Shown piece after piece: positions 410 to 37,455 of a DNA stretch of 39,886 nt (its first letter is position 1; every line of letters starts with the position of its first letter). The notes beneath the pieces were generated by a model. It was not told the origin of the DNA. It did not search any database and worked only from the letters and a program-made list of their open reading frames with translations. The translations under genes were made by a program, and so were the position numbers. This DNA comes from Deltaproteobacteria bacterium. Lineage in GTDB: Bacteria; Desulfobacterota; Binatia; UBA9968. The stretch spans positions 1 to 39,886 of the forward strand of contig JACPSE010000099.1 in the NCBI GenBank assembly GCA_016193465.1, in the 5' to 3' direction.

Positions 410-415
410 AAAAAC

Positions 416-17290: not shown

Positions 17291-17305
17291 TTGCCAAAAT
17301 GGTGG

Positions 17306-17432
17306 GCCGGGTCTGGAACCCCATTTTGGGCCGAGAGTATCCGATAGGGCAGCGGTTATGTCAGAGTGGGAGTGGGTTACCGGCAGGGGTGGACATTCGT
17401 TAGGCGCTGGAGTATGAGGGCTTTTAGATTAA
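17306..17432 (+). repeat. Dispersed repeat element, copy 2
   Basis: It shares blocks with 28262–28411 in the same order: an ATTTTG segment, GAGAGTATCCG, TTATGTCA, GGGGTGGACAT, CTGGAGTA and GAGGGCTTTTAGATTAA. Read on the complement the blocks CTGACA (17359–17364) and GATACT (17336–17341) are 17 bases apart, a promoter-like pair pointing away from the binding-protein gene. The copy ends about 60 bases before the binding-protein pseudogene. Confidence 0.65.
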
Positions 17433-17493
17433 CGGAGCCTATGAAGAATCAGAGGCTGAAACTTCGGGTTTTTTGAAAGCCAGGAGGAAAGCT

Positions 17494-17993
17494 ATGAAAA
17501 CCAAATACTCTGCGGTAATCATGCAGGCCCGTATTCATGAGTGTTTTATCCATGGGGTTATTTTGACCTTCATGTTGTTTCCTTTGATCCTGGGAGTTGA
17601 AGTACCTCTCTGGGCGGCCTCTGTAGAAGAGGAGGCAGCAGCCAAAAGGGTCCCATCCCTATAGCCTCCAATTCGGACCGAATAGAAGAAATGAAGACAA
17701 AGCGAGGCGCGCCCGTGGACTGGGTCGGAGTAGAGCCGGTGATCTCCCGCCAACATCCCATAGCTTTGGCTCGTGGCGCCCCTCGTCCCAACGCAGCCAA
17801 GTTGTACATTGATTATGTTTTGTCCAGAGAAGGGCAGGAAATAGCCAGAAGCACTCTTCAATTGCCCGACAGGGCAGATGTAAAACCGCCGTTCAGCATC
17901 AAGGGATTTAAGCTGCATTATGCGGATTTGAGCTTGGCTGATCGTTACGAGGAAATCACCAAGAAATTTGACACTATGTTTAAACAGAGGTAG
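17494..17993 (+). pseudogene. Family-1 substrate-binding protein, internal deletion
   Basis: The 5' part (ATG 17494 with AGGAGG upstream) encodes a signal peptide and the first mature residues (VPLWAASVEEEAAAKR). The frame stops at 17662–17664. In a second frame the sequence resumes as ASNSDRIEEMKTKRGAPVDW, VEPVISRQHPIALARGAPRPN and the family C-terminus ending at 17993. Intact paralogues nearby are 338–351 residues; here about 200 central residues are missing, with the joint near 17645–17655. A deletion, not a sequencing error, is needed. It would not make a binding protein. Confidence 0.8.
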
Positions 17994-18005
17994 TAAGGAC
18001 TGGGC

Positions 18006-18069
18006 AAAGATGTGCTAGAAGGGGGAGTAAAGGGCTTTAGGATGATTAACCAAGCGACAGTGCGCAAGG
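18006..18069 (+). repeat. Composite of two local repeats
   Basis: Bases 18006–18031 match 19356–19381 inside the Fe-S protein gene at 24 of 26 positions. Bases 18031–18069 match 21553–21591 at about 34 of 39 positions (core GGCTTTAGGA … AACCAAG … GACAGTGCGC). Both copies of the second part can be read in the same frame ((G/S)FR..NQ.TVR), so they may be remains of a gene. The segment lies just before a binding-protein gene. Confidence 0.55.
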
Positions 18070-18102
18070 TTTTTGCTGCTTTGAGATAAGAAGGAGTGAT
18101 TT

Positions 18103-19119
18103 ATGAAAAACTATTCTCTTCCAGTTCTTTTGGCGCTAGCCATCTTCTTTTCTCCTGCCTATGGCGATGACGACTTGCGTTCCGTTGCAGAAGGGGCGAA
18201 AAGAGAGGGATCGCTGACCCTTTACATGAGCGCACAGGTCACGGACATTCAAAGGCTGCTGGAGGGATTCAGGAGGCACTACCCCTTTGCCAAAACTGAA
18301 TTTATCCCGCTGACCGGAGAGAGACTTCTTGCTCGCATCATCACGGAGACCAGTGCCCGTCGCTACAGCGCCGACGTTTATCGCCTGGACCTTCTGCGGG
18401 TACAGGAGCTCCTAAAGAGAAGCCTTCTTGAAAAATACACCCCTCCTGAGGCTGCCAGGTATCCCAGGGAACTTAGAGATCCTGAGGGTCGCTGGACAGG
18501 GCACGCCCTGACCCTTGAAGTCATGGGGTGGAATACTAAGCTGCTACCTAAGGAGCTTGTCCCAAAGAAATTTGACGACCTTCTAAGGCCGGGGCTTAAA
18601 GGAAAGATCGCTATTGAAAGCACCACCTGGGACTGGTTTACAGCAGTGCAAGAGCTGATGGGGGGTGAGGAAAAGGGGCTGGCCTTCATGAGAGCGCTGG
18701 CGGCTCAAAAGCCAACACTTCGGAGAGGTCATACCCTTTTGAGCCAGCTCGTTGCTGCGGGTGAAGATCCGTTGGCAGCTACCCTGCATTCCAACGGAAT
18801 CGAGACGCTACGACTGAGAGGAGCGCCCGTAGATTGGACATGGACGGATCCGGTGCTTAGCAAAGTGCAAATCATTGGCGTGGCCGGAAAGGCTCCTCAT
18901 CCGAATATGGCGCGCCTGTTTGTCAACTTTGCCCTCTCCAGGGAGGGGCAGACAATTCTTGGAGACGTGGGGAGAACTCCCGCCGACCCGGAAGTGGTCC
19001 CCTCCCTTTCATCTAGACTCTCGATCAAAGGAAAAAGGCTTTTTGTCTATCCTCCGGAATGGGGTGAAAGGGGAAATGAGCTGAGAGAGCGTTTCGAAGA
19101 AGTCCTTGGGAAAAACTGA
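18103..19119 (+). CDS. Extracellular family-1 solute-binding protein (orphan)
   Basis: A 338-residue periplasmic binding protein with a signal peptide (about 1–21, cut near AYG). The mature part opens with VAEGAKREGSLTLYMSAQ, typical of the ferric-ion/putrescine-like SBP class, and has the shared C-terminal block RGAPVDWTWTDPVLSK … GKAPHPNMARLFVNFALSREGQ. AAGGAG precedes the ATG. No ABC permease or ATPase gene is nearby. The substrate is unknown: iron-type tyrosines are not obvious, so an organic ligand is as likely. The Fe-S reductase-like gene starts 17 bases after its stop, suggesting co-transcription. Confidence 0.85.
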   Translation: MKNYSLPVLLALAIFFSPAYGDDDLRSVAEGAKREGSLTLYMSAQVTDIQRLLEGFRRHYPFAKTEFIPLTGERLLARIITETSARRYSADVYRLDLLRVQELLKRSLLEKYTPPEAARYPRELRDPEGRWTGHALTLEVMGWNTKLLPKELVPKKFDDLLRPGLKGKIAIESTTWDWFTAVQELMGGEEKGLAFMRALAAQKPTLRRGHTLLSQLVAAGEDPLAATLHSNGIETLRLRGAPVDWTWTDPVLSKVQIIGVAGKAPHPNMARLFVNFALSREGQTILGDVGRTPADPEVVPSLSSRLSIKGKRLFVYPPEWGERGNELRERFEEVLGKN

Positions 19120-19136
19120 AATGCGGAGGCTTTCTA

Positions 19137-20360
19137 ATGCTGACAGGCAGGCAGCGTAATCCACGGTCTTACCGTATTGTAGGGCCTCAGCGACAAATCG
19201 ACGAGCGTGAGGCCCCTCACTCCCGGGTCGATCTTGGGGAACTTGGAGAGCGGTTCAGCGCCCTGCGGAAGAGCCGCGCTGGCGAGGATCCTTTCAAGCG
19301 TGTCTTGTGGGCCGGCGGTGGTGGAGACCCGAACAACTCTTTAAACCCTATCATGAAAGATGTGCCGGAAGGGGGAGTAAATCCTAATCGGATACCTGTC
19401 TCCGACCCCGCCAAAATGGCGCGCAACATCAAAGAGATCGCCCGCTTCCTCGGCGCCGATGTGGTGGGGATCACTGACCTCGATCAGGCCTATGTCTATT
19501 CCCACCGTGCCAGAGGCAACGCTGCCACGGGGGAGAAACCGGGAGACCCGATTCATCTGCCCCATCGCTATGCCATCTGTATGGGTTTTGCCTTTGATTA
19601 CTACAAGTTTCTCAGTAATAACAGTCGGATCTCAGACGCTGAGTATGGGCTGGGCATGATCCATACGATTCCAACCACTTTCATGCTGGCCGCCTACATC
19701 CGCGAGATGGGTTACCCTGCGCAGGCGCACCATTACGGGAGGTACGTGGTCAGTCCTATACCTTTGGCGGTTAACGCCGGGCTAGGGGAGTTGGGACGTC
19801 ACGGGTTGCTCATCAATGAGGAGTACGGCTCCCGGCTGCAGTTGTCTACAGTTACGACGGATCTCCCACTGGCAGTTGACGAGCCCGTTGATATTGGAGT
19901 TGAGGAAGTCTGCAAGTACTGTATGAAGTGTGCCCGCATTTGTCCCTCGCACAGCATTTCTTTTGGAGGCAAGGAGGTTTATAACGGGGTGGAGAAGTAC
20001 CGCATCAACGCGGACACCTGCTACAAGTACCGGCTGGCATCGAGGGGCCAATGGACCGTTTGTGTTATTTGTGTCTCCTCGTGTTGTTACAACAAGCCTA
20101 AGGCATGGTGGCATACGCTGGCCTGCTGGACGATCAAGAAGACCCCGATACCGTTACGCCCGCTCTTGATCAAGCCCTTGCTCTGGATTGACGATCTTTT
20201 CTGGGGCAAGAGGCCCTGGAAACATATGAAGTGGCTGGACTACGACAACGCCCCTACGCCCGTGACCTGTAATATACCCGGCTGCCAGGCGAAGCACGCC
20301 AACCTGCAGCATAAGCGGCTCCATGTTACCAAGCCGGCAGCAGGGGGCTTGGTGAGCTGA
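19137..20360 (+). CDS. Reductive-dehalogenase-like Fe-S protein, cytoplasmic
   Basis: A 407-residue protein of the reductive dehalogenase/QueG-like corrinoid Fe-S group. The N-terminal half has MARNIKEIARFLGADVVGIT, a segment shared with RdhA homologues, and NAGLGELGRHGLLINEEYGSR-type residues (GELGRHGLLI) near 225. Two cluster motifs follow: CKYCMKCARICP (about 259–270) and a second set with CVICVSSC (about 306–313). There is no twin-arginine signal, unlike respiratory dehalogenases, so it is probably cytoplasmic; a B12 cofactor is inferred from the family. The basic N-terminal ~60 residues are unusual. GGAGG precedes ATG 19137. Its 3' end is repeated at 21642–21839. The substrate is unknown; the neighbouring binding proteins may import it. 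Confidence 0.75.
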   Translation: MLTGRQRNPRSYRIVGPQRQIDEREAPHSRVDLGELGERFSALRKSRAGEDPFKRVLWAGGGGDPNNSLNPIMKDVPEGGVNPNRIPVSDPAKMARNIKEIARFLGADVVGITDLDQAYVYSHRARGNAATGEKPGDPIHLPHRYAICMGFAFDYYKFLSNNSRISDAEYGLGMIHTIPTTFMLAAYIREMGYPAQAHHYGRYVVSPIPLAVNAGLGELGRHGLLINEEYGSRLQLSTVTTDLPLAVDEPVDIGVEEVCKYCMKCARICPSHSISFGGKEVYNGVEKYRINADTCYKYRLASRGQWTVCVICVSSCCYNKPKAWWHTLACWTIKKTPIPLRPLLIKPLLWIDDLFWGKRPWKHMKWLDYDNAPTPVTCNIPGCQAKHANLQHKRLHVTKPAAGGLVS

Positions 20361-20479
20361 GGGGGAGGCAAGAAACTGCAACGGGCGCAGGAGCCGTTTC
20401 ATGTCGGCAGCGCCCGGAGCGGAAACGCAACAACAGAGGTTTTCACAAGACTGTCAACGGCGAAACACGGGAGGTTGTT

Positions 20480-21553
20480 ATGGCGGCAAGATTCTCTCTT
20501 GGCGGAATAAAGTTTCTGGCGATTCTGCTTGCGGGGTACGTAGGTTTTCTTTATCAACCGATCGGCGGTGGCCGTGCCCACGGCCAGACAGCGCCCTTTT
20601 ATCAGGGCAAAACCATTCGGATCATTGTAGGATTTACTTCGGGAGGGCTCTACGACCAGTATGCGCGTATTCTCTCGCGTTACATGCCCAGGCACATTCC
20701 TGGAAATCCCGACATAATCGTACAGAATATGCCGGGTGCGGGCTCCTTGATTGCTTCCAACTATGTTTATGGTGTGGCGAAGCCCGACGGCTTAACTCTT
20801 GGGATGGTTAGCAGTGGGGTCTATCTGGACCAGCTACTGGGGCGAAAGGAAGTCAATCATGACGTGCGCAAGTTTGTCTGGATTGGCAGCGTCGATCAAA
20901 GTGATCTGATGCTCTATATGAGAGCCGATGCGCCCTGGAAATCCGTTGAGGACATTGCCACGGCGGCCGAGCCTCCGAAGTGCGGAGCAACAGGGACAGC
21001 CGACAGCACCACGATTCTGGGCGATGTCCTGGAAGAGACAGTCGGGCTCAAATTTAAGATCGTGCGCGGCTATCCGGGAGCGTCCGAGATCGATATGGCG
21101 ATAGGAAAGGGAGAAATTCACTGCCGTGGAACAGGCATAACCACCCACTTTTCTCGTGAGCCTTTTTTGACCTGGCACCGGGAAGGATTCGACCGCCACA
21201 TCATCCAAACTGGGGTCAAAAGAGACCCCCGCCTACCCGACACACCGACACTCCATGAGCTTATGGGCAAAAAGAAGACACCAGAGATAAGCAGAGCGAT
21301 TGCTCGGGTTCTATTGCTTGGGCGAACACTCGGCCGGCCCATGCTGGCTACCCCCGGGATCCCTGCGGACCGCGTTAGAGTTCTGCGTGAGGCCTACCTC
21401 AAGGCATTCAAAGAACCGGAGGTTATAGCCGAGGCACAGAAGAGAAGATTGGACCTTGATTCCCTGAGGGGTGAGGAGCTCGAGGCTGTGATGCGAGAGG
21501 TGATCAATCAACCTCGTGAGGTCGTTGAGCGAGTCAGAAAGATGGCAGAGTAA
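20480..21553 (+). CDS. TctC/Bug-type tripartite transporter binding protein
   Basis: A 357-residue periplasmic protein with a signal segment (about 1–35) and the TctC/Bug fold: YQGKTIRIIVGFTSGGLYDQ, then ILSRYMPRHIPGNP, VQNMPGAGSLIASNYVY and a C-terminal PADRVRVLREAYLKAFKEPE. These bind carboxylates or aromatic acids for tripartite transporters. TctA and TctB are absent here, so it is an orphan. It lies between the Fe-S protein gene and a partial copy of that gene's 3' end, which implies a duplication around it. Confidence 0.85.
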   Translation: MAARFSLGGIKFLAILLAGYVGFLYQPIGGGRAHGQTAPFYQGKTIRIIVGFTSGGLYDQYARILSRYMPRHIPGNPDIIVQNMPGAGSLIASNYVYGVAKPDGLTLGMVSSGVYLDQLLGRKEVNHDVRKFVWIGSVDQSDLMLYMRADAPWKSVEDIATAAEPPKCGATGTADSTTILGDVLEETVGLKFKIVRGYPGASEIDMAIGKGEIHCRGTGITTHFSREPFLTWHREGFDRHIIQTGVKRDPRLPDTPTLHELMGKKKTPEISRAIARVLLLGRTLGRPMLATPGIPADRVRVLREAYLKAFKEPEVIAEAQKRRLDLDSLRGEELEAVMREVINQPREVVERVRKMAE

Positions 21554-21591
21554 GAGCTTTAGGACGATGAACCAAGTGACAGTGCGCGAGG
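21553..21591 (+). repeat. Second copy of the 39-bp local repeat
   Basis: It matches 18031–18069 with five differences. It begins at the stop of the TctC gene and is followed 50 bases later by the duplicated 3' end of the Fe-S gene. An in-frame ATG (MNQVTVREEE…) ends at a TGA soon after, so no gene is intact here. Confidence 0.55.
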
Positions 21592-21641
21592 AGGAGCTGG
21601 TGGTGAAGTGACGTATATTCCCGGTCAATCCCTGTATGTTG

Positions 21642-21839
21642 CTCCTTATTGTCCCGTTGCTTTGGATCGACGATCTTTTTTGGGGCAAGCGGCCCTGGAA
21701 ACATATGAAGTGGCTGGACTACGACAATGCCCCTACGCCCGTGACCTGTAATATACCCGGCTGCCAGGCGAAGCACGCCAACCTGCAGCATAAGCGGCTC
21801 CATGTTACCAAGCCGGTAGCTGGGGGGGCGGTGAGCTGA
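21642..21839 (+). pseudogene. Duplicated 3' end of the Fe-S protein gene
   Basis: The last ~66 codons (LLWIDDLFWGKRPWKHMKW … TCNIPGCQAKHANLQHKR) repeat residues ~345–407 of the Fe-S protein, with nearly the same DNA; between the matching parts only a handful of bases differ, mostly near the 3' end. It lacks both Fe-S motifs. Recent duplication followed by deletion is the simplest reading. Confidence 0.85.
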
Positions 21840-21856
21840 GGGGTAGGGGTTTTTCC

Positions 21857-22024
21857 ATGGAAATCATTAACGACGAGACGCCCGAAATTAACCTGGCTTT
21901 TATCTCGCGCTTTTTCGGTTTTCGCTCTCATATTAGAGACTTTAGGATAGAGCCGGTCCGGGCCAATTTTTATCATCCGGGAGGTCAGGGCTGGGGTTTG
22001 CCTTTTGTTTGGATTGAAAAATAG
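21857..22024 (+). CDS. Short hypothetical frame (55 codons)
   Basis: A frame from ATG 21857 to TAG 22022–22024 encodes MEIINDETPEINLAFISRFF … GLPFVWIEK. It has no clear ribosome site and no family I recognise. It may be a fragment left by the rearrangement that duplicated the Fe-S gene end. Codon choice is ordinary. Confidence 0.25.
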   Translation: MEIINDETPEINLAFISRFFGFRSHIRDFRIEPVRANFYHPGGQGWGLPFVWIEK

Positions 22025-22095
22025 GTTGTTGGTGTATACGTTGACCGCAAGCAAACGGAAGATCGGGCTCCCGTCAGAAAAGGAGGTAAACCCCT

Positions 22096-23151
22096 ATGAA
22101 GCTTCGTGATGCAGGCATCTTGTTCGTTCTCGGCATTTGGTTAATTCTTTCCTATAACCCAGCTAATGCGGCCAGCTTGGCTGACGTCGCTCTCTATCGA
22201 GGGGCCGACCGCCAGGCCAGGCTTGAGAATGCTGCCAAAGCGGAAGGCGAGTTCACCTGGTATACGACACTTTCAGCGGAGACTAACAGAAAAATGCTGG
22301 AAGCCTTTCAGAAGCTCTATCCGTTCATCCAGCCCAAGCTCGTCCGCTTGAGTTCGGATAGGCTTGTGCGGCGCTACACAACGGAATACCAGGCCAAGAG
22401 CTTCTTGGCTGATGTTCTGGACACCAATGACTCCCACATCGAGTTCTTTCGCCGCAAGGGGATGCTCCAACCTTATTACACGCCGATGGCTGAAAAGTTT
22501 GACAAGCGATTTATCCACCCACAGAGTTATTGGGTAGCCAACCGGGTCACGATGACGCTGCTTGGTTACAACACTCGTTTGGTCAAGCCCACCGAGGTTC
22601 CTCAGCGCTACGAAGACCTTCTCGATCCAAAGTGGAAAGACAAGATGTCAATGGAGCGCGAAGACGCCCCATGGTTTATGGCCTTGATGGAGTATTGGGG
22701 TGAGCAAAAAGGCGAGGCTTTTTTTCAGAGACTTCGAAGCCAGAATCCCAGGATCCGGAGCGGCCACACCCACCTTGCGCAGTTGATCGCCGCCGGTGAG
22801 GATTTTCTATCTCCCAATGCCCACAGCCAGGGGATGGCTTCGGGAAAGCGCCTGGGTGCGCCGGTCGATTGGGCTAACCTCGAGCCAGTCGTCGCGGCGA
22901 GTAACGTTAGCGCTTTGGCGAAAAACGCCCCGCACCCCAACGCGGCTTTGATTTTTCTTGATTTCATGCTGAGCAGGGATGGCGGGCAGAAAGTCATTCG
23001 AGAAGTCAATCGGATTCCAACGCATCCGGAAGTCTTACCTGACCCGGCCCGTTTGCGAGAGGGATTCGACTTTATTGTCATAGATCCGGTTAAGTATAAC
23101 GATCATATCGACCGCTATAGTAAGCTCTGGCACGGGTGGTTTCTACAATAA
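22096..23151 (+). CDS. Extracellular family-1 solute-binding protein (orphan)
   Basis: A 351-residue paralogue of the 18103 protein with signal peptide (about 1–26, cut near ANA). It has AAKAEGEFTWYTTLSAETNR at the start of the mature fold, VPQRYEDLLDPKWKDK in the centre and GAPVDWANLEPVVAAS … NAPHPNAALIFLDFMLSRDGG near the end. GGAGG lies before the ATG. No permease or ATPase is adjacent. A cupin gene follows 34 bases later. The ligand is unknown; divergence from the other copies suggests different ligands. Confidence 0.85.
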   Translation: MKLRDAGILFVLGIWLILSYNPANAASLADVALYRGADRQARLENAAKAEGEFTWYTTLSAETNRKMLEAFQKLYPFIQPKLVRLSSDRLVRRYTTEYQAKSFLADVLDTNDSHIEFFRRKGMLQPYYTPMAEKFDKRFIHPQSYWVANRVTMTLLGYNTRLVKPTEVPQRYEDLLDPKWKDKMSMEREDAPWFMALMEYWGEQKGEAFFQRLRSQNPRIRSGHTHLAQLIAAGEDFLSPNAHSQGMASGKRLGAPVDWANLEPVVAASNVSALAKNAPHPNAALIFLDFMLSRDGGQKVIREVNRIPTHPEVLPDPARLREGFDFIVIDPVKYNDHIDRYSKLWHGWFLQ

Positions 23152-23185
23152 CTGGCCGCAAGAACACGTTCTAAGGAGGTGCAGG

Positions 23186-23731
23186 GTGGAAAAGCAAATG
23201 TACGACGAAGAGCGCTGCTTTGTGCGCAATATTGGCAGCCAGGGTTACAGCCTGGAACGGGAGCTGGCGCGCCTGAGGAGTCTTCCCCGGGTCATCAAAG
23301 CTTCCGACCGTTCTTGGCGAGGCGGACCCCAGGTGTGGCATAAAAACATGATGAATCCGGGTTATGGGTTGACACAGAGCCTGCATTGTTCCCTCGAGGA
23401 GTTGAGTCCTGGAGGGCGGTCGCAGAAGCATGGGCATCAGAATCCTGCGTTGTTGTATGTAGTGGAAGGACAGGGGTACGATATTCACGATGGAGTGCGG
23501 TACGACTGGGGCGCGGGGGATTTGGTGGTGGTGACGCCTGGCTGCGTGCATCAGCATTTCAATGCGTTAAACGATCGTCCGGCGCGGGTGCTGATTATTA
23601 AGGGCAAGCCGTTGTATTTGTTTATGGGGTTGTGGTTTCAGGGGTTTGTGGAAAAGGCGCCGAAGCAGCCGGCGCCGGGGTGGGAGAATTTCAAGCCCAT
23701 TGACGGTTCTTTCCTGGAAAAGCGCGGCTAG
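23186..23731 (+). CDS. Single-domain cupin protein
   Basis: A 181-residue protein with one cupin barrel: SPGGRSQKHGHQNPALLYVVEGQG (metal-type histidines and glutamate, about 74–97) and PGCVHQHFNALN (about 126–137). Likely a metal-binding dioxygenase or sensor-like protein; the substrate is unknown. The GTG start follows AAGGAGG. It is in line with the binding-protein gene before it and ends against a convergent gene. Confidence 0.7.
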   Translation: MEKQMYDEERCFVRNIGSQGYSLERELARLRSLPRVIKASDRSWRGGPQVWHKNMMNPGYGLTQSLHCSLEELSPGGRSQKHGHQNPALLYVVEGQGYDIHDGVRYDWGAGDLVVVTPGCVHQHFNALNDRPARVLIIKGKPLYLFMGLWFQGFVEKAPKQPAPGWENFKPIDGSFLEKRG

Positions 23732-23747
23732 ATTAGGATCAGCGCAG

Positions 23748-24155
23748 CTACCCTTTCAGCAAAGCCGCCTGTCCGATCTTCGCCAGCTCGAGATCCTTCT
23801 CTGACGGACGGCCGCTGATACCGATTCCCCCCACGGTGAATTTGTTTTTCTGGATGACGACGCCGCCGGGGATCCCGGTGAGGCGGGGATTGCCGTACCA
23901 ATCAAGAGTGCGGCGCGATTCCCTCAACAGCTCGCCGACTTCACCGCTGTCTTTCTCCATGTAGGCCGAGGTGTAAGCCTTGCTCATGGAGAAGTGCAGA
24001 TTGCGCAGTGGAACGCCATCCATCCGCGCCAAGTAAAGGGGTTCGCCGGTGCGATCGACGACAACGGCGCACACAGGCTTGCCCCCGTCCTTGGCTGCTG
24101 TTTCGAGCATCGCCATTACCGCAGCTTGGGCCTCTCTCAGGGTTAAAACTTCCAT
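23748..24155 (-). CDS. GlcG/HbpS family protein
   Basis: A 135-residue DUF336 (GlcG/HbpS) domain protein: LREAQAAVMAMLETAA at the start, VVDRTGEPLYLARMDG, and the closing block GGVVIQKNKFTVGGIGISG. Family members bind heme or small organic ligands, or accompany glycolate and diol catabolic genes. It is the last of three minus-strand genes after CapA-like and alpha/beta hydrolase genes. No signal peptide is visible. Confidence 0.8.
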   Translation of the reverse strand: MEVLTLREAQAAVMAMLETAAKDGGKPVCAVVVDRTGEPLYLARMDGVPLRNLHFSMSKAYTSAYMEKDSGEVGELLRESRRTLDWYGNPRLTGIPGGVVIQKNKFTVGGIGISGRPSEKDLELAKIGQAALLKG

Positions 24156-24276
24156 ACTCGGTTTTAGCTCCTTTCGGTCAAGGGAGTTCCTTAGTTCATT
24201 TTGACGTACCTACCCTCAATGCGCGGACTACCGGGGTGGTCATGCCCGAGCTAGAAGAGCGGTCGGCTGGCAGCGT

Positions 24277-25074
24277 CTAGCCCACTGACCGCAGGAAGTC
24301 CAGCGCCGCCTTCGCGCAGACCTCGGGGTGCGTGTGCTGCACGAACCCTCCAGCACCGGGCACCATGAAGAGTCGCGCGCCCGGGATTGCGCGCTGCTGC
24401 TCCCGGTATGCCTCAGCGGGCTGTCCGGCGCTGTCCGCCGGCGCGATGACCAAGGTGGGCGCCTTGATCTGGCGAATCCGCTCGGTCAAGTCTATGCCCC
24501 TCGTATAGTTCAACGTATCTTTGACCACCGACTGCCTGGTGCGGCCCATCTGCTGCGCGTACCACTCGGCCAGCGCGGGGTCGCTGTCCTTGCCAAGGCG
24601 GCGGTGCATCGTGGAGCGCGCCCACGCCTCGACACCGTGCTCTTCCACATACGCGGCTGACTCCCCACGAGAGGAACTGGCGAACTTGAACGGCGACGTG
24701 CAGGCGGTCAGACTTTTCACCCTGTCCGGGTACTGGTACGCAAACTGCAGGCCTATTGTCCCGCCCACTGTCTCGCCGATAAAGTGCATCTTCTCCAGAC
24801 CAAGGTGGTCCAAGAGCCGCGCGATGTCGGTGGCGAAGCCCTCTAAGCTCCAGTTGTAGCCCGGCGGTGGCGCTGTGGAATCGCCAAAGCCCCGCGCATC
24901 CATCCGTACCACGCGGTAATGACGCGCCAAGATGGGCACCCACGCCCACCAGAAGCGATGGTTCTTGGCGTTGCCGTGGTGGAGGAGAACCGTCTCGGGC
25001 TTAAGCCAGGGGTCGGTGAAGTCGTCAATGCAGTAGAACATTTCTAGGGTGTCATCAATGCGGACGGTGGGCAT
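24277..25074 (-). CDS. Alpha/beta hydrolase fold protein, altered triad
   Basis: A 265-residue protein with the full alpha/beta hydrolase layout: LHHGNAKNHRFW at the oxyanion strand, YRVVRMDARGFGDS, the nucleophile elbow at about residues 99–104 and LVIAPADSAG near the acid. The elbow reads GETVGG: the catalytic Ser/Cys/Asp position is Thr. At the usual catalytic His position the sequence is GAGGFVQHTH, with Gly after GAG and a His four residues later. Either an atypical hydrolase or a non-hydrolytic family member (for example a lyase or binding protein). It sits between CapA-like and GlcG/HbpS genes on the same strand. Confidence 0.75.
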   Translation of the reverse strand: MPTVRIDDTLEMFYCIDDFTDPWLKPETVLLHHGNAKNHRFWWAWVPILARHYRVVRMDARGFGDSTAPPPGYNWSLEGFATDIARLLDHLGLEKMHFIGETVGGTIGLQFAYQYPDRVKSLTACTSPFKFASSSRGESAAYVEEHGVEAWARSTMHRRLGKDSDPALAEWYAQQMGRTRQSVVKDTLNYTRGIDLTERIRQIKAPTLVIAPADSAGQPAEAYREQQRAIPGARLFMVPGAGGFVQHTHPEVCAKAALDFLRSVG

Positions 25075-25227
25075 GAACGCCTCCTTCGCTGGAGTCTATG
25101 GAGTCGAGTTTATGCTACATCGGCACTCGCTGCGGCGCAAGGCGCGCGTGGCCCTCGGCATCGAGCACAACCCGGACATGGTCAAGCACGCGCAGGGCAA
25201 TGTGAAAAGGGGTAGGCCCTCAGCGGG

Positions 25228-25246
25228 AAGAGCCGTGATGGCTCTT
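25228..25246. terminator. Hairpin after the CapA-like gene
   Basis: AAGAGCC, loop GTGAT, GGCTCTT is a perfect 7-bp stem about 20 bases past the CapA-like stop (read on the minus strand). There is no long T-run, so terminator function is uncertain. Confidence 0.35.
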
Positions 25247-25267
25247 GGTGGGCGAAGAGCTAACCCG

Positions 25268-26680
25268 TCACTTAGGCAGGACGACCCCGATGCCATCACG
25301 GATCTCTATGGTGGTGCCGAAGGGCTTGGACCTCTCCCGCGCCCGCTCGATGACCTGATTGAACTTCTCGCTCCCGGGCTCCGCGAGTCGGGGCACGCTG
25401 AGTCGGGGCCGGCGGCCGTGAATGATATATTCCTCCGTCGGACGGATCCTAATCTCCTTCAACTCGGCGTTCTCCCCGAAGACGACGGTGTGGACGGCGC
25501 TGCCGATGCCGGAGAAGGCCTGCCTCTGCCCGCCAGCGCGATTGGCACGCTCGCGGCTGCGCTCCCGCTCCTCCAGCAGTTCTCCAGCCGTGCTGTCAAT
25601 GCCCAGGCCCATGCGGAGCTTCATTGATGTGGGGAGCTTCGTCACCTCGTCGTTCTGCAGGTACAGCGGAGGCTGACCATAAATGATTGCCTTGCCCTTG
25701 TAGAATTCGATACCCCGCTGAACACCGCCGTGATTGATGTAGATATCGGCGCCGGCATCGATGCAGCCGTGGGCAAAGGTGTTGATGTAATCGTGCACCC
25801 CCACACCATGGGCCTGGTCATGGAGTGCCACGATGACGACGTCGGCATGCCGCCGAGCTTCCGTGACATGCCTGTAGGTCCGGTCCAGGTCCTCCTGGTA
25901 GGCAAAGGTGGACATGCGGAACTCCTCCCCCAACACGAACTTCCGGCCCATGAAAAAGAACTCGGTGTCCGTGTCCTTCTCCCACCCCCGGAGCGTGGAG
26001 CCGATAAGCGGCTCGGTCCGGGCGGCACCCTGGAAACGCACCACCTTCCCACGCCCCCACTCCAGCTCCTGGCTGATGCGCTTGAGCTGTTCGAAGGCGT
26101 CCCGGTCCACGTGCGCGACCGCGTCGTACCGCAGGACGTTGACGCCAGGGCGGCTCTTGTAGGGTGGCAGCTCGTCCGCGGGCATGTAGCCGGCGGGCCA
26201 CGGGAAGGGGAGATCCATCATCTGACGCGGGCCCCAGTCGGCGGCGGCGATCAAGGCGACCCGCGCGTTCTCGGTCTCTAGGTAGGTTGGCTGAGAGGCC
26301 TCAGTGAGGCTGGCCCCGATGCCAGCGTAGGGCATCCGGCCACGCTTCAAGTAATTGATCGTCGTCAGGATACCCAGCTCGCCGAAGTCCGCCACGTGGT
26401 TGTTGGCTGCGTACACGGCCTTGATCCCCATGAACTTAAGTTCCTCTATCATGCTGGGGGGAGCGCCCATGTAGGTCCCGGCCCAGCCCATGCCGGAGCC
26501 GAAGGCGGGCCAGTCCTCACCGTCCTGGATGGCGCACTCCAGATTCGCGAAGCTCAAGTCGGAGCCCTTCAGCAGCTCGACGAGCTTGAGGAAGCCCACT
26601 TTTCTGTGGTGCACCGACACCCGGTGCTCGATATACGAGTTCCCCGTGAACGACAGGTGTGTTTCTCCGTTGTCTGCCAT
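25268..26680 (-). CDS. CapA-like metallophosphatase-fold protein, divergent
   Basis: A 470-residue protein of the CapA/PgsA (poly-gamma-glutamate synthesis) superfamily. Family features: FTGNSYIEHRVS at the first metal loop, DLSFANLECAI, AANNHVADFGELGI (the conserved NNH), then VVIVALHDQAHGVG and GADIYINHGG. Several expected metal ligands are changed: GNS in place of GDS, NHGG in place of GHGPH. No membrane anchor is seen. ATG 26680 follows GGAGAGGG; ATG 26695 is an alternative. It may hydrolyse or bind something other than poly-glutamate. It heads a minus-strand group with the alpha/beta hydrolase and GlcG/HbpS genes. Confidence 0.7.
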   Translation of the reverse strand: MADNGETHLSFTGNSYIEHRVSVHHRKVGFLKLVELLKGSDLSFANLECAIQDGEDWPAFGSGMGWAGTYMGAPPSMIEELKFMGIKAVYAANNHVADFGELGILTTINYLKRGRMPYAGIGASLTEASQPTYLETENARVALIAAADWGPRQMMDLPFPWPAGYMPADELPPYKSRPGVNVLRYDAVAHVDRDAFEQLKRISQELEWGRGKVVRFQGAARTEPLIGSTLRGWEKDTDTEFFFMGRKFVLGEEFRMSTFAYQEDLDRTYRHVTEARRHADVVIVALHDQAHGVGVHDYINTFAHGCIDAGADIYINHGGVQRGIEFYKGKAIIYGQPPLYLQNDEVTKLPTSMKLRMGLGIDSTAGELLEERERSRERANRAGGQRQAFSGIGSAVHTVVFGENAELKEIRIRPTEEYIIHGRRPRLSVPRLAEPGSEKFNQVIERARERSKPFGTTIEIRDGIGVVLPK

Positions 26681-26809
26681 GGATACCCTCTCCATCCCTC
26701 GTCTTTTCGGCAAAGCATAGCCGATAACGTGCAAATAGATCAACCCGGCACATTGGAATAACCCTTGCCCTTGACAAGGTGATAATCCCTCCCTAAGCTA
26801 CGCAGATAT

Positions 26810-27022
26810 ATGGGCCAGGTAATTCGTTTTAAAGAGCTGCACCAGGCGCGGCGCCGCCGTTCGGAAAAGGTCAGCATGGAGCAGTGCGTGGAGCTGTTAG
26901 AATGGAATCTCAAGAGAAGCCTCGACCAATATTTTTCCTCCCCGCCTGAGGAAAAATCGATGCGCGCTACTCAGATCCGCAAGCTCAGTGAGATCCTGGA
27001 ATACGCCCTGAGGCTTCTCTAG
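26810..27022 (+). CDS. Hypothetical small protein
   Basis: A 70-residue, helical-looking protein with a basic N-terminal stretch (ARRRRSEK) and a regular amphipathic C-terminus. No family recognised. TTGACA at 26771–26776 may be the -35 box of a promoter but the -10 region is poor. It ends 18 bases before rmuC and may be co-transcribed with it. Confidence 0.55.
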   Translation: MGQVIRFKELHQARRRRSEKVSMEQCVELLEWNLKRSLDQYFSSPPEEKSMRATQIRKLSEILEYALRLL

Positions 27023-27039
27023 CTTCAAAGCCCCCATTT

Positions 27040-28146
27040 GTGGAAGCGCTTAATCCTATTCTTCTCATCCTTCTCCTCACTGTAGGTTTTGTCGTTCTTG
27101 CCTGGTTTTTCCTGCGCCGCTTGCAAACTCTCCTGTCAGAGAGAAAAGAGGACCAGTCCCTTCTTTTAATCCAGCAGCAGATCGATCAACTGCGCGGTCA
27201 GTTCACGCAAGTTCTGGACAGCAGCGTCCAGCTTATCCACCAGCAGTTGGGACAGGTTTTGAGTAACGTCAACGAGAGGTTGAAGGAAAGCTCGGAGGTC
27301 CTGCAAAAGACACAGCAGAGCCTAGGGGAAAGACTCGACAATGCGGCGCGGGTGGTGGGGAACGTGCAAAAGAGTCTGGGGAGCCTGGAGGAGGCGAACC
27401 GGAAGATTTATGAGGTGGGAAAGGATATCGCTTCCCTGCAAGAGATCCTGCGCGCCCCCAAGCTCAGAGGCGGTCTGGGGGAATTTTTCCTCACTGACCT
27501 TTTGAGCCAGATCCTCCCGCCGGACCACTTTGCCGCGCAGTTTGCTTTCCGCAGCGGCGAGAAGGTGGATGCGGTTATTAAGCTGGGAGGGTCTCTGGTT
27601 CCGGTCGATTCGAAGTTTCCCTTGGAAAACTTCAAGCGGATGTTGGAAGGGGTTACCGAGGATGAAAAGGCTAAGGCGAGAAGGCAATTTGTGACCGATG
27701 TGAAAAAGCACATCGATGCCATTGCCACCAAATACATCCTGCCTGATGAGGGGACCTACGACTTTGCCCTCATGTACATCCCCGCAGAGAATGTCTATTA
27801 CGAAACGATCATCAAAGATGACGGTGCGGGAGGCGAGAAGAGTTTGAGCCATTATGCGCTGAGCAAAAAAGTCATACCCGTCTCCCCGAACAGCTTTTAT
27901 GCCTATCTCCAGGCAATCGTCTTGGGCTTGAAAGGGATGAAGATCGAAGAGCGCGCCAAAGAGATCATCCAGTACCTCAGCCGCCTAGAGGGGGACTTTT
28001 CCAGGTTCCGAGAAGAATTTAACCTGGTGGGGAAGCACCTGGGCCACGCCCAAGCAAGTTTTCAAGGCGCCGAGAAGCGCCTCGATCAATTCGGGCAAAA
28101 GCTGCTGGCGGCGGATGCGGACAAAAAGGGTCTACCGGAACCCTAA
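27040..28146 (+). CDS. rmuC: DNA recombination protein RmuC
   Basis: A 368-residue RmuC protein. An N-terminal membrane segment (about 5–24) precedes a long coiled coil (about 30–130), then the RmuC nuclease-like domain with LRGGLGEFFLTDLLSQILP, VDAVIKLGGSLVPVDSKFPLENF split by a short gap, and FALMYIPAENVYYE. RmuC is thought to limit inversions and rearrangements at repeats; the PD-(D/E)XK-like core is in the VDSKFP region. The start is GTG 27040, or nearby. Confidence 0.92.
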   Translation: MEALNPILLILLLTVGFVVLAWFFLRRLQTLLSERKEDQSLLLIQQQIDQLRGQFTQVLDSSVQLIHQQLGQVLSNVNERLKESSEVLQKTQQSLGERLDNAARVVGNVQKSLGSLEEANRKIYEVGKDIASLQEILRAPKLRGGLGEFFLTDLLSQILPPDHFAAQFAFRSGEKVDAVIKLGGSLVPVDSKFPLENFKRMLEGVTEDEKAKARRQFVTDVKKHIDAIATKYILPDEGTYDFALMYIPAENVYYETIIKDDGAGGEKSLSHYALSKKVIPVSPNSFYAYLQAIVLGLKGMKIEERAKEIIQYLSRLEGDFSRFREEFNLVGKHLGHAQASFQGAEKRLDQFGQKLLAADADKKGLPEP

Positions 28147-28482
28147 GTGATAAGTGATAGCAGGAATTTGCTTTTTGAGCCGGCCCTTGAGAACTCGAAA
28201 GCTGCCTCCTCGACCAAGCGGCAGAGAGCCTTCATGAACCCAAGGGGCATCTCAGGGTTATGAACCGGTCCCGGAGCCCGATTTTGAGGCGGAGAGTATC
28301 CGGTAAGGTAGCATTATGTCAACTCGCGGGAGGTTTCCAGATAGGGCTGGACATCTACTCCGAATTGGAGTAATGAGGCTTTCAAGTTAGCTGGCTGTAG
28401 GAGGGATCGAGGGTAATCTCTTTTGCTGGTGGGGCATGGGACTCTTCCCATAGACCTAAATGTTTCGGCTGGAGGAGAAAAT
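28147..28482 (+). other. Gap with dispersed repeat before a binding-protein gene
   Basis: This 336-base gap is mostly copy 3 of the dispersed element (28262–28411). Near its start it has a short doubled phrase (TAAGTGATAAGTGATAG) that recurs in part at 32724–32752. The last bases hold GGAGGAG, the ribosome site of the next gene. Confidence 0.5.
28262..28411 (+). repeat. Dispersed repeat element, copy 3
   Basis: The longest copy of the element. It shares GAGAGTATCCG, TTATGTCA, a GGGCTGGACATCT block and AATTGGAGTA with 17306–17432, and GGCTGTAGGA with the copy at 291–386. On the complement TTGACA (28317–28322) and GATACT (28295–28300) are 16 bases apart. It ends about 70 bases before the ATG of the next binding-protein gene. 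Confidence 0.7.
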
Positions 28483-29532
28483 ATGCCTATCGTTCGACAG
28501 GTTGCGCGGATATTTTTTTTCATCATCCTGGCCTTGATGACTCTGTTTCCTCCCAGCTACTGGGCTACGTCCCCTGAAGCGGCAGAAAAACCCGAGAATT
28601 TGGTTGCCCAAGCGAAAAAAGAGGGCACGCTGGTACTCTATTGTTCTGTGCCGCTCGAGCTCATGAAGCCCATCACCGAGGCATACGAGCAGAGATATCC
28701 ATTTATCAAATCTACAATTCTGCGGCAAAGTAGAAATAAGATACATGCCAAGGTTAGGACTGAGCAGCTAGCAGGGCAGTTTCTTGTGGACGTCATCCAG
28801 TCCGGGGGAGACCATCTTTACAATTTTGTAAAGGAAGGAGCTTTTGACAGGTACTATTCAGCCGAGGCAGAATCTCTCGAAGCAAAACAAAAGGAACCAG
28901 GTTTCTGGTCAGCTTTTTACCACTCCAACCGCGTCACAGCGTATAATAAGCGGCTGGTTAATGACCCACCTCGGGATTTAATGGATCTATTAGATCCGAA
29001 ATGGAAAGGGCTGATAGCTATGCGGGGCGATGAGGAAGACCAGTTTGTTGTTCTTGAAGAACAAGTCATAGGTAAGGAGCAAGGCTTTGGCTATCTGAAA
29101 AAACTCGCAGCTCAAAAACCCAGGCTATACCTCGACAATGCGCTTCTGGTTCAATTACTGGCAGCCGGCGAATTCCCTATTGTTTTCCATGCTTCTCAGC
29201 ACCTTGTTGAAAGCGCAAAGGGGAAGGGAGCGCCTGTCGATTGGGTGGCAATGGAATGGAAGGGTAAAAAGTTCACGATCACGCAAACATCGGCCCTTGC
29301 GTTAGCGCGAAATGCGCCCCATCCGGCTGCGGCAAGACTTTTTGTTGATTTTGTCCTTTCCAAGGAGGGGCAAGAACTGGTAAGTCAGCTTCATCAGGTG
29401 CCCGCGAAAACCAGAAACGTGAAGCTGGCTTATCCCAATTTAATCGAAGGAATCGAGAAATATTACGTTCCCATTGACATCGGCAAAAAAATCGTGGAGC
29501 TCAAAAAGCGTTACGAGCATTTGTTCCAATGA
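28483..29532 (+). CDS. Extracellular family-1 solute-binding protein (orphan)
   Basis: A 349-residue paralogue of the proteins at 18103 and 22096. The signal peptide covers about 1–28. The mature fold begins LVAQAKKEGTLVLYCSVP and carries LDPKWKGLIAM, then KGAPVDWVAMEW and NAPHPAAARLFVDFVLSKEGQE. ATG 28483 with GGAGGAG is chosen over the longer frame from 28423. It precedes the acyl-CoA synthetase operon by 82 bases, so its ligand may be an organic acid that those enzymes activate (inference). No ABC permease is nearby. Confidence 0.85.
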   Translation: MPIVRQVARIFFFIILALMTLFPPSYWATSPEAAEKPENLVAQAKKEGTLVLYCSVPLELMKPITEAYEQRYPFIKSTILRQSRNKIHAKVRTEQLAGQFLVDVIQSGGDHLYNFVKEGAFDRYYSAEAESLEAKQKEPGFWSAFYHSNRVTAYNKRLVNDPPRDLMDLLDPKWKGLIAMRGDEEDQFVVLEEQVIGKEQGFGYLKKLAAQKPRLYLDNALLVQLLAAGEFPIVFHASQHLVESAKGKGAPVDWVAMEWKGKKFTITQTSALALARNAPHPAAARLFVDFVLSKEGQELVSQLHQVPAKTRNVKLAYPNLIEGIEKYYVPIDIGKKIVELKKRYEHLFQ

Positions 29533-29614: not shown

Positions 29615-30343
29615 ATGAAGCAGGGAGGCATCATCGGAAGGCTTTTAGTCAAAGCCTACGAACAGGATCGTTCCTTGCTTTTCGAGGTAGAGGCAAAGGA
29701 ACTTCTTCGCAGACTCGGGCTCAGGACGCCTGCCTTTAAAATCGCAAAATCTAAACGTCAAGCGTGCTTCGAAGCCCGTAAGGTTGGTACACCTGTGGTG
29801 CTGAAAGTTTTGTCACCGGGCGTAGTACACAAAAGCGAGCTGGGCGGCGTAAGACTAAACCTTAGGACGCGAGGCGAAATCGGAAAAGCTTACGATGAGA
29901 TCATGAGATCGGCAACGAGATCAATCGGTGATCGCAGGATCTACGGTGTCTTGGTAGAACGCATGGTTCCTCAAGGAACCGAACTTATTGTGGGGGCAAC
30001 CACTGATGAAAAGTTCGGTCCCATCATCGTGTTTGGGATAGGTGGAATTTTCGTTGAGCTATATAAGGATTTTTCCATGCGGTTGATACCCATAACGGCC
30101 AGAGATGCCAACGAAATGCTTAAGGAAATCCGGGCGCGTGACTTGCTGGAAGGTTATAGAGGACAAGATCGCCTGGATCTCGATGAGCTTGTTCGGATCT
30201 TGTTAGCGATAGGGGGTAGGGACGGGCTCATGGCCAGTTTTCCCAGCTACGTCAAGGCAATAGACCTGAATCCTGTGGTTGTATATCCTCGGGGATCTCT
30301 GGTTGTTGATGGCAAATTTTTTCTTCATCAACGAAAGCGCTAG
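29615..30343 (+). CDS. Acyl-CoA synthetase (ADP-forming), ATP-grasp (beta) subunit
   Basis: A 242-residue ATP-grasp protein: FEVEAKELLRRLGLRTP opens the fold, VVLKVLSPGVVHKSELGGVR is the signature of the acetyl/acyl-CoA synthetase beta chain, and VGATTDEKFGPIIVFGIGGI the second. It works with the CoA-binding alpha subunit encoded 17 bases downstream: acid + CoA + ATP to acyl-CoA + ADP + Pi. The substrate acid cannot be read. Probably an operon of three genes. Confidence 0.85.
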   Translation: MKQGGIIGRLLVKAYEQDRSLLFEVEAKELLRRLGLRTPAFKIAKSKRQACFEARKVGTPVVLKVLSPGVVHKSELGGVRLNLRTRGEIGKAYDEIMRSATRSIGDRRIYGVLVERMVPQGTELIVGATTDEKFGPIIVFGIGGIFVELYKDFSMRLIPITARDANEMLKEIRARDLLEGYRGQDRLDLDELVRILLAIGGRDGLMASFPSYVKAIDLNPVVVYPRGSLVVDGKFFLHQRKR

Positions 30344-30360
30344 CCGTACGCGGGTTTAGA

Positions 30361-31851
30361 ATGGTGACTTCCCAGAGAGATCTTAAGTTGCTCGACTATG
30401 TCTTCCATCCTAGATCGATAGCGGTCATTGGTGCATCCAACGATGAGAAAAAATACGGCTATAGAGCCGTCAGCGTACTGAAGACACAACACTTCAAAGG
30501 AAATATCTACCCCGTGAATCCCTCAGCGGATATGATCTGCGGTCTAAAGTCATACCCCTCGGTCAAACACATTCCTGGAAAGGTGGATTTGGCCCAAATT
30601 ATGGTTCCCGCACCATTGGTGCCTGCGATGGTCAAGGATTGCCTGTCAAAAGGCGTTAAGATCGCTCACATTTACACCTCTGGTTTTAGTGAAGCGGGCA
30701 AAGATGGTAAGATGCTTGAAGACCAGATTGTGAGGATTGCAGGGCGAGGCGATTTGAGGATCGTTGGGCCTAATTGCCTTGGAACTTATTGCTCTCGGTG
30801 TCGTTTGGCACTCAATCACAGAGTAGGTATGGAGGTTGGGGACGTTGCTTTTGTTTCGCAGAGTGGCGGACTGACAAGCAGCCTGATCCAAGCAGGCAAC
30901 GTGCGCGGTTTTGCGTTTAGCAAAGCTATTTCCGTTGGAAACTGCGCTGATCTTGGGTTGGTGGAGTTTCTCGAATACATGGCCTCGGATGCGGAGACTG
31001 AGATCATTGCAATGTACATCGAGAGCTTAAGAGGAGATGGCAGGCGGTTTTTCAATGTCCTCCGAAAAACGACGAGAAAAAAACCGGTGGTGATTTTTAA
31101 ATCCGGAAACACCAGGCGGGGGAGGGAAGTCGCAGCTAGCCACACTGGCGCCCTCACGGGGGACTATGTTATCTGGAAAACGGTATTAAGCCAGGCAGGG
31201 GCTATTGAAGTGAGAAGTCTGGCTGAAATGGCGGACGTCATTTCAGGGCTTAAGAGACTCCATCCGATTCCCGGCAAAAGGAGCCTCGCCATCATTGGAA
31301 ATGGAGGAGGTCAATCGGTTATAAGTGCTGACATGTGTTCCGAGTTTAACTTAGACCTGAACGATCTGTCAGCTCATACCAAGAGGAAGCTGAAGTCACT
31401 TCAACTTCCCGCAGGTACGAGCACTAAAAATCCGATTGATTTACCGGCTAGCGTTCTGAGGCGCAAGGAGGGTCATTTTTTTAAGGCTGTTCTGGAAGGT
31501 GTCACTTCGGACCGAAGCATTGGTGCTGTGGTATTGAATCTCGAAATGGAAACTATCATTTATGATCGTTCAGCAGAAAACCCATCTATACATTATTTGG
31601 TGAACATGGTAAAGGCGGCTGCTGAAGCTCGCTCGCCAACATGCGCCGTAATGGTCGTCCTGCGTTCCAGCGACGATCCCAAGCTCCAATCGCTAAAAGA
31701 AGAGATTGCTATGCGGGCGAAAAGGCTGGCAATGCCTGTGTATTGGGATCTCCGAAGCGGGCTTAAGGCTTTGGAAAAGATAATTTACTATTCCGATTAT
31801 CTGCGTAGGAATCGGTTTCCTAAATGGACGGGAGGAGGCAATGGAACTTAA
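30361..31851 (+). CDS. Acyl-CoA synthetase (ADP-forming), CoA-binding (alpha) subunit
   Basis: A 496-residue protein with the CoA-binding Rossmann domain (SIAVIGASNDEKKYGYRAV), the first ligase domain (GPNCLGTYC; VAFVSQSGGLTSSLI) and ASHTGALTGD, whose histidine is the phospho-acceptor of the family. The C-terminal half has NGGGQSVISAD and STKNPIDLP. It pairs with the ATP-grasp protein before it. The next gene starts inside its last codons (31841). Confidence 0.87.
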   Translation: MVTSQRDLKLLDYVFHPRSIAVIGASNDEKKYGYRAVSVLKTQHFKGNIYPVNPSADMICGLKSYPSVKHIPGKVDLAQIMVPAPLVPAMVKDCLSKGVKIAHIYTSGFSEAGKDGKMLEDQIVRIAGRGDLRIVGPNCLGTYCSRCRLALNHRVGMEVGDVAFVSQSGGLTSSLIQAGNVRGFAFSKAISVGNCADLGLVEFLEYMASDAETEIIAMYIESLRGDGRRFFNVLRKTTRKKPVVIFKSGNTRRGREVAASHTGALTGDYVIWKTVLSQAGAIEVRSLAEMADVISGLKRLHPIPGKRSLAIIGNGGGQSVISADMCSEFNLDLNDLSAHTKRKLKSLQLPAGTSTKNPIDLPASVLRRKEGHFFKAVLEGVTSDRSIGAVVLNLEMETIIYDRSAENPSIHYLVNMVKAAAEARSPTCAVMVVLRSSDDPKLQSLKEEIAMRAKRLAMPVYWDLRSGLKALEKIIYYSDYLRRNRFPKWTGGGNGT

Positions 31852-37343: not shown

Positions 37344-37455
37344 GAATTGGACTGACCCCCTGAGGTTGGACGATCTAGGGCGACAAGTGAGATAATTTTG
37401 AGGAGAACAACTAGGATGGCTTCTCTGGAATCCTCCTTTTGAAGAAGTTAAAAGG

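Follow-up and report, generated by a model that had tools for sequence, protein, structure and literature searches.

What do exported binding proteins do when their genes lie together with no transporter beside them? The question is raised by a 39,886-nucleotide stretch of DNA from Deltaproteobacteria bacterium (GenBank assembly GCA_016193465.1; GTDB lineage Desulfobacterota, Binatia, UBA9968, which is represented by environmental genomes), hereafter the window, which is the whole of contig JACPSE010000099.1 (C34) in a 4.5-Mb genome of 238 contigs. A first-pass annotation of this DNA had described, between positions 17,494 and 29,532, four paralogous substrate-binding proteins (SBPs), one of them deleted, and one TctC protein, interleaved with a reductase-like Fe-S protein, a cupin and CoA-activation genes and accompanied by no permease, ATPase, TctA or TctB gene. 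We confirmed this observation. Pfam identified three intact SBP_bac_6 genes, one TctC gene and a broken SBP_bac_6 copy that matches the family by its C-terminal part only, and the interleaved genes are as described. There was no match to BPD_transp_1 or TctA on the contig, i.e., the whole window, and no ABC ATPase among the 20 window open reading frames (ORFs) scanned with Pfam, 19 of which lie from 15.4 kb rightwards; no genome-wide search was made for TctB, TRAP or ABC-ATPase families. The hallmark of an SBP_bac_6-type ABC importer, a permease and an ATPase in one operon with an exported SBP, is missing here.

We propose, with a probability of about 0.55, that the stretch is made of mix-and-match cassettes, in which an SBP receptor is coupled to an early catabolic enzyme and the permeases are encoded elsewhere. 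Three such cassettes would lie in tandem: 1) SBP1, an RdhA-like protein and TctC, 2) SBP2 and a cupin, and 3) SBP3, an acyl-CoA synthetase and an enoyl-CoA hydratase. Each exported binding protein would bind a single type of organic acid in the periplasm and, once loaded, would dock on a permease encoded elsewhere in the genome, which has 123 BPD_transp_1 domains in 64 gene groups and 18 TctA matches representing 15 or more genes. The adjoining cytoplasmic enzyme would then perform an early catabolic step. Cassettes would be renewed as genes are duplicated and re-paired and as one half or the other decays, with one enzyme type meeting different SBPs. The first-pass interpretation is thereby partly supported: its suggestion that the paralogues take different ligands of one theme and share permeases fits best, while the sharing itself, like the ligand class and the chemistry of the RdhA-like enzyme, is something we infer. 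Permease sharing by orphan SBPs has been proposed for Bordetella and Rhodoplanes (excerpts of PMC5994714).

The genes of these putative cassettes are tightly spaced on the same strand. SBP1 and the RdhA-like gene are separated by 17 bp, SBP2 and the cupin gene by 34 bp, and SBP3 opens an operon-like run with gaps of 82 and 17 bp followed by an 11-bp overlap. The plus-strand SBP/enzyme stretch spans 17.5 to 32.6 kb and is broken by an alpha/beta hydrolase gene (minus strand), a PGA_cap gene (minus strand) and an RmuC gene. A GGAG-like site precedes the start of all six intact genes (SBP1, RdhA-like, TctC, SBP2, cupin and SBP3). With a simple hydropathy window, we found hydrophobic export-like N-termini in SBP1, SBP2, SBP3 and TctC but not in the RdhA-like protein, the cupin or the window PGA_cap protein.

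The cluster is part of something much larger. The genome contains at least 151 matches to PF13343 (SBP_bac_6), 82 to NMT1 and 22 to TctC; the SBP_bac_6 total is a lower bound because 150 of 207 candidates were scored. Of the 150 listed matches, 41 lie within 3 kb of an ABC permease domain, 2 are near TctA, 5 have an RdhA-like gene within 1.5 kb and 102, the orphans, have neither permease, TctA nor RdhA-like gene nearby. Window SBP1 belongs to the five, and SBP2 and SBP3 are classed as orphans. Since 24 of the 254 SBP-type starts in the genome open a 12-kb stretch with at least four SBP-type matches and no permease or TctA, the cluster is not exceptional, and the idea of a local or unique system gives way to one of many clusters in a genome-wide expansion. 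Orphans cluster on the SBP tree (FastTree; 51 of 147 inner branches open), with 28 changes vs. a shuffled mean of 40.9 and none of 500 shuffles as low. The window SBPs sit in an older, more diverse part of this tree, and their nearest relatives are mostly orphans (up to 41% identity). Their best permease-linked relatives are 31–36% identical, and we did not find each paralogue matched to a permease of its own elsewhere.

How far does the expansion extend? First-look SBP candidates number 206 in this genome, 13–156 in 24 other members of the family, 4–20 in 10 genomes of the order's other families and 0–5 in 23 genomes of the class's other families (of the candidates in the relatives, no more than 38 or 39 were scored in any one genome). 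Of the 58 genomes searched, only those of one family-level lineage show the expansion, with copy numbers far over those of relatives and SBPs outnumbering their membrane partners. Orphan SBP expansions as such are already known. Those of TctC/Bug proteins in Bordetella, Cupriavidus and Rhodoplanes likewise comprise many scattered exported SBPs and few membrane partners, at a density of 57 per Mb outside islands (excerpts of PMC5994714) vs. 56 match rows per Mb here, three SBP families together. In contrast to those expansions, which in the same excerpts involve one family, the TTT SBPs, the present one consists mainly of ABC-type SBP_bac_6 and NMT1 proteins with few TctC, belongs to an unrelated lineage and shows recurrent enzyme partners. 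We found no description of an ABC-type expansion this large with enzyme partners, or of the RdhA subfamily, when searching an open-access library of papers. The role of orphan binding proteins has been in question since the Bordetella expansions, and a neighbouring enzyme suggests its orphan's ligand class, which makes the question testable pair by pair.

Enzyme partners of the binding proteins

The pairing of an SBP with the RdhA-like Fe-S protein, whose recurrence was a point raised by the first-pass annotation, recurs both within the genome and across genomes. There are eight strong TIGR02486 matches in the genome and a weak ninth (C200). Six of the eight lie within 1.5 kb of an SBP_bac_6 or TctC gene, as does 12.4% of the genome; with NMT1 counted, it is again six of eight vs. 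16.8% of the genome. Across genomes, a binding-protein gene lies within 1.5 kb of 13 of the 16 intact close copies and within 0.5 kb of 10, its family being SBP_bac_6, TctC or NMT1 depending on the copy. In contrast, no locus of a split sister subfamily (0/9) has one within 1.5 kb (Fisher P = 1e-4, uncorrected for relatedness), even though the relatives concerned are comparably SBP-rich and three contain both subfamilies; NMT1 genes lie 1.7–3.6 kb off in five of these loci and 4.9 kb off in a sixth. The counts leave out C200 (own-genome neighbours), a frameshifted second RdhA-like gene of L073 and a 306-bit G020 fragment. The NMT1 profile and a second SBP profile were built from genes near RdhA-like copies, and the former also matches in the control loci. 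In five loci (L074, L077, L121, L125 and L126), little sequence is available on one side of the gene.

Two of these pairs have been inherited together between genera. The window RdhA-like gene and L070a, from genome G010 of another genus, are orthologues (support 99/99), and SBP1 and TctC are 80% and 77% identical to their L070 counterparts, the TctC orthologue being one gene removed from the orthologous RdhA-like gene in the L070 locus. C61b and L070b are likewise orthologous (support 87/92), with partner SBPs 81% identical. Between different RdhA-like pairs, the identity of SBP_bac_6 partners does not exceed 37%. A search of the 19.4-kb G010 locus for the other marker genes of the window found none. 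In the underlying RdhA-like tree, 8 of 15 inner branches are open and the outgroup branches are long.

Six own-genome copies, including that of the window, form a close group, the other five being 74–87% identical to the window copy. In four of the five comparisons, the DNA is similar only between a point some 12 bp upstream of the start codon and one shortly after the stop codon, and the flanks differ; in the fifth, the similarity does not reach the stop codon. Matches to the subfamily above 500 bits occur in 7 of the 58 genomes, all of the same family, and G020 has a fragment in addition. Nine loci from a species-genome scan all come from metagenome-assembled genomes labelled Deltaproteobacteria, and the RIFCSPLOWO2_02_56_12 locus has match coordinates identical to those of G003, which belongs to the same genus as the window genome. 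The RdhA-like copies offer a natural set of enzymes, 66–89% identical, that meet unrelated receptors.

Two further enzyme families show the pairing at a larger scale. Among 147 ORFs of at least 110 aa beside orphan SBPs outside the window, 21 are MmgE/PrpD and 17 PGA_cap, vs. 2 and at most 1, respectively, in a control set of 102 genes that are not near listed SBPs. Counted from the enzyme side, 21 of the 30 PGA_cap genes have an SBP_bac_6 gene no more than 1 kb away and 33 of the 73 MmgE/PrpD genes have one no more than 1.5 kb away, always on the same strand, vs. a genome background of 8–11%. Both families are themselves greatly expanded in this genome (30 and 73 places over the family cut-offs, with 1 PGA_cap and 3 MmgE/PrpD rows excluded as under them). 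SBPs linked to MmgE/PrpD also cluster on the SBP tree, none of 500 shuffles being as low. Smaller groups among the 147 neighbours are UbiD (5), ComA-like (4) and arylmalonate decarboxylase-like (3) proteins. Organic acids are the substrates of most of these families, and the conservation in another genus of the window's own SBP/RdhA-like pair points to modular acquisition of many different organic acids. PGA_cap proteins lack a strongly hydrophobic start in 29 of 30 cases, and the pairing of members without signal peptides with binding proteins suggests that they serve something other than capsule synthesis. The three SBP-enzyme units of the window seem to be instances of a design found throughout the genome, although not every orphan falls under it. 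We found no description of an RdhA/SBP pairing, or of SBPs paired with CapA-like or PrpD genes, in open-access listings, outside which most subscription journals fall.

The RdhA-like protein and its possible chemistry

The window RdhA-like protein, 407 aa with one domain, scores under the TIGR02486 cut-off of 160.35 bits (Table 1), which two of the eight strong genome copies exceed once their pieces are joined (169 and 167.4 bits). Its eight 4Fe-4S cysteines (C259, C262, C265, C269, C295, C309, C312 and C316) do not vary across 12 aligned rows that include annotated RdhAs. The best PDB match is NpRdhA (4ras, 6zxu), with which it shares both sets of Fe-S cysteines and the Arg552 position, where most copies have Arg and three have Lys. 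Judged by sequence, it clearly belongs to the reductive-dehalogenase superfamily. Epoxyqueuosine reductase (QueG) was considered and rejected (TIGR00276, 51.2 bits vs. a cut-off of 200).

A true module for the reductive dehalogenation of halogenated aromatic acids, like that of Comamonas sp. 7D-2, would be compatible with the cassettes, and we regard it as possible but doubtful. Several features speak for it. On plasmid pBHB of that strain (NC_021077.1), a TctC gene lies 40 bp before the RdhA gene bhbA, on one strand, in an aromatic-degradation cluster and beside ring-cleavage dioxygenase genes, so that a TctC-rdhA neighbourhood is already known. The window protein and its relatives have a near-cut-off RdhA score, both Fe-S clusters and, in most copies, the arginine at the Arg552 position. 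The TctC protein next to bhbA is presumably the one named BhbB. Cupins near the window copy and two others weakly resemble gentisate dioxygenases, that of the window also aminosalicylate dioxygenases, far under their cut-offs. At L053 12863–17514, four tandem cupins of this weakly gentisate-dioxygenase-like kind lie one gene from the C12 RdhA-like copy, a member of the own-genome close group that has no adjoining SBP.

Other features speak against it. Unlike BhbA, which at 1,071 aa contains a duplicated domain and also a reductase domain, the window protein has neither, and its relatives adjoin SBP_bac_6, NMT1 or TctC genes depending on the copy. A vestigial duplicated domain and usually a C-terminal reductase domain are given for catabolic RdhAs such as NpRdhA and BhbA (excerpts of PMC10463259); the vestigial N-terminal domain of NpRdhA is likewise absent here. 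The traits of respiratory RdhAs are likewise missing: hydropathy revealed no TAT-like or signal-like start, and rdhB is not a direct neighbour (SBP1 and TctC are), rdhB not having been searched for as a family. In the rdhA plasmid loci of Nitratireductor, Jannaschia and Sulfurospirillum, no SBP lies directly beside rdhA; at the Jannaschia locus, an ABC importer operon is one gene away.

The active site also departs from that of NpRdhA. In NpRdhA, Tyr426 is the proposed proton donor and K488Q is without activity (excerpts of PMC7565698). A phmmer alignment against NpRdhA and the 12-row alignment agree that Tyr426 is replaced by Asn, Met or Leu at position 174 of the subfamily, Lys488 by His or Gln235, and Ser422 by an invariant Tyr170. 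Residues were mapped by alignment only, an AlphaFold2 model (10 close relatives; mean pLDDT 30.6) being unusable. Since the Tyr/Lys dyad of NpRdhA is replaced, dehalogenation by the RdhA-like protein is doubtful and at present unproven. The dyad might be substituted by Tyr170 and His235, at a distance of one helix turn; however, the window copy carries Gln235 and so does not have this pair. Met174/Gln235 is common to the window copy and its G010 orthologue, and the other aligned copies have Asn or Leu with His. The RdhA-like copies form an RdhA branch without the usual catalytic dyad. Our broader proposal, a family-level lineage with combinatorial cassettes (orphan SBPs with RdhA-like, PGA_cap, MmgE/PrpD or other enzymes) whose halves are re-paired, and in which the RdhA-like proteins would be a new cobalamin/Fe-S subfamily in which the active-site Tyr/His pair has moved and the reaction differs from known dehalogenation, is offered as tentative.

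Two other RdhA-like forms were observed. A more distant gene at C122:49421–50095 (L055 9268–10173) has an apparent Tyr near the NpRdhA Tyr426 position, and the genome may thus also hold a more canonical RdhA. In the split sister subfamily (L118 4278–6220; L119–L126), an RdhA-like gene of about 440 aa is directly followed by a half-RdhA gene of about 200 aa (39.9 bits to TIGR02486, a weak match), as though the vestigial NpRdhA domain had become a subunit of its own.

Turnover and sensing as alternatives

Could the pattern arise from near-neutral birth and death of SBP genes, which would scatter copies next to incidental neighbours? We consider this unlikely, although several findings agree with it. 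Both SBP and RdhA-like genes have broken copies in the window, adjacency is easily reached where an SBP is at most 1.5 kb away over 16.8% of the genome, one SBP clade of 64 young paralogues includes 58 orphans, and SBP partners are unrelated in three of the five RdhA-like sister groups. On the other hand, near-neutral turnover would not readily yield same-strand pairing with two enzyme families far over background, two specific pairs co-inherited between genera while other neighbours change, or a sister RdhA subfamily devoid of SBPs within 1.5 kb.

The cassette reading has its own difficulties, and these weigh against it. Ligand, permease docking and expression are things that we infer. Strict co-inheritance of every RdhA-like/SBP pair had to be rejected, since only two of the five cross-genome sister groups retain an orthologous SBP, and this failure lowers our confidence in the reading. 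C61a and L077 share only a TctC pair (50% identical; 3.3 kb off and on the opposite strand in C61), while in L075/L076 and L072-L073-L074-L078 an SBP is lacking or the NMT1 partners are unrelated (34% identity at most). The absent or unrelated partners in these three groups fit re-pairing and, equally, loose linkage. Three of the 16 RdhA-like copies (C12, L075 and L078) have no SBP within 1.5 kb; in L077, the match within that distance is a weak NMT1 fragment and the TctC gene lies just beyond it; in L074, another enzyme stands between the RdhA-like gene and the SBP; and in C61, as in L070, one SBP is common to two RdhA-like copies. The counted copies are related, which makes the P values too small. 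A single clade of RdhA-linked SBPs was also rejected, the five rows (two of which lie by the distant C55 copy) needing five changes. Beyond the RdhA-like proteins, Cupin_2 is no commoner beside orphans (4/147) than among controls (4/102), SBPs linked to PGA_cap show no clustering on the SBP tree (as few changes in 94 of 500 shuffles), PGA_cap and MmgE/PrpD are both absent within 1.5 kb of 59 of the 102 orphans, and the window PGA_cap gene is not in an SBP operon but on the opposite strand, 2.2–2.6 kb from the nearest SBP domains.

A role of the orphans as ligand sensors that dock on two-component kinases or chemoreceptors rather than as importers, which the first-pass annotation had entertained in view of the nearby kinases and for which other SBP-kinase pairs provide precedent (excerpts of PMC11113362; discussed in those of PMC5994714), is improbable, as the kinases start 5 kb past SBP3, behind CoA-activation and PPK2 genes and outside the SBP transcription units, nothing was found that links the SBPs to them, and the 25 commonest families beside orphan SBPs include enzymes but no kinase family, with LysR substrate domains beside 4 of 147.

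Coordinates, decayed copies and a dispersed element

Table 1. Positions of the features discussed, numbered from the first nucleotide of the window
Feature	Position	Strand	Evidence
Copy of dispersed intergenic element	262..428	-	
Copy of dispersed intergenic element, upstream of broken SBP	17294..17482	+	
Broken SBP_bac_6 gene, internal deletion	17494..17990	+	ATG, upstream AGGAGG, signal-peptide-like start
SBP1, SBP_bac_6 binding protein, exported	18103..19119	+	PF13343 60.6 bits; hydrophobic N-terminus
RdhA-like Fe-S protein, probably cobalamin, without signal peptide	19137..20360	+	TIGR02486 157.6 bits; NpRdhA structures E ~1e-46
TctC-type binding protein, exported	20480..21553	+	PF03401 53.4 bits
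Second RdhA-like gene, remnant	21604..21842	+	5' flank joined to last ~67 codons; profile E 1.4e-39
SBP2, SBP_bac_6 binding protein, exported	22096..23151	+	PF13343 64.7 bits
Cupin	23186..23731	+	Cupin_2 50.5 bits; NF049978 39.7 bits vs. cut-off 650
PGA_cap (CapA-like) protein, divergent family member	25268..26743	-	PF09587 129.1 bits
Copy of dispersed intergenic element, upstream of SBP3	28249..28435	+	nhmmer E 8.8e-47
SBP3, SBP_bac_6 binding protein, exported	28483..29532	+	PF13343 56.7 bits
Acyl-CoA synthetase (ATP-grasp_5 and alpha subunits, split) and enoyl-CoA hydratase	29615..32620	+	PF13549, TIGR02717 (under cut-off), PF00378
Two-component kinases	34625..38898		

Both halves of a cassette are decaying in the window, as one SBP has lost its middle and one RdhA-like gene is reduced to its ends. 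In the broken SBP_bac_6 gene, positions ~17616–17990 resemble only the C-terminal ~115 residues of the family, a part matched by 29 of 30 genome SBPs tested (best E 1.9e-25). The RdhA-like remnant had been overlooked in the first-pass annotation. Its positions 21604–21647 are 95% identical to the 5' flank of the copy on contig C42 and positions 21641–21841 are 95% identical to the 3' end of that copy, with about 7 bp at the join common to both sides. A 24-codon RdhA-like tail at G000:C73:3520–3591 (E 2.8e-5), with a PGA_cap gene and an SBP close on the contig, is probably another remnant.

An intergenic element of about 165 bp is dispersed in the genome and lies upstream of SBP genes in several cases, including SBP3 and the broken SBP. 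Further copies are found at L054 3876–4076, L058 18036–18214 and other places. Its core is near-palindromic (TCCGATAAGG...GTTATGTCAAC). The copy upstream of SBP3 was matched (Table 1) with an nhmmer profile built from that copy and related ones. Core sites number 23 in the genome vs. 0 for a reversed control, and the element is present in 20 of 57 relatives. A shared leader RNA regulating the SBPs was set aside: RNAalifold gave no consensus pairs in 10 element copies, Rfam matched only two tRNAs in the window and none of the element copies there, and element numbers in relatives do not follow SBP numbers (G021 has 0 core sites and 156 SBP candidates). No PF00589 integrase was found on the contigs that carry the 23 core sites. 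Downstream of the element copy that precedes SBP3, the ATG at 28483, which is preceded by GGAGGAG, is favoured as the SBP3 start over a TTG at 28423.

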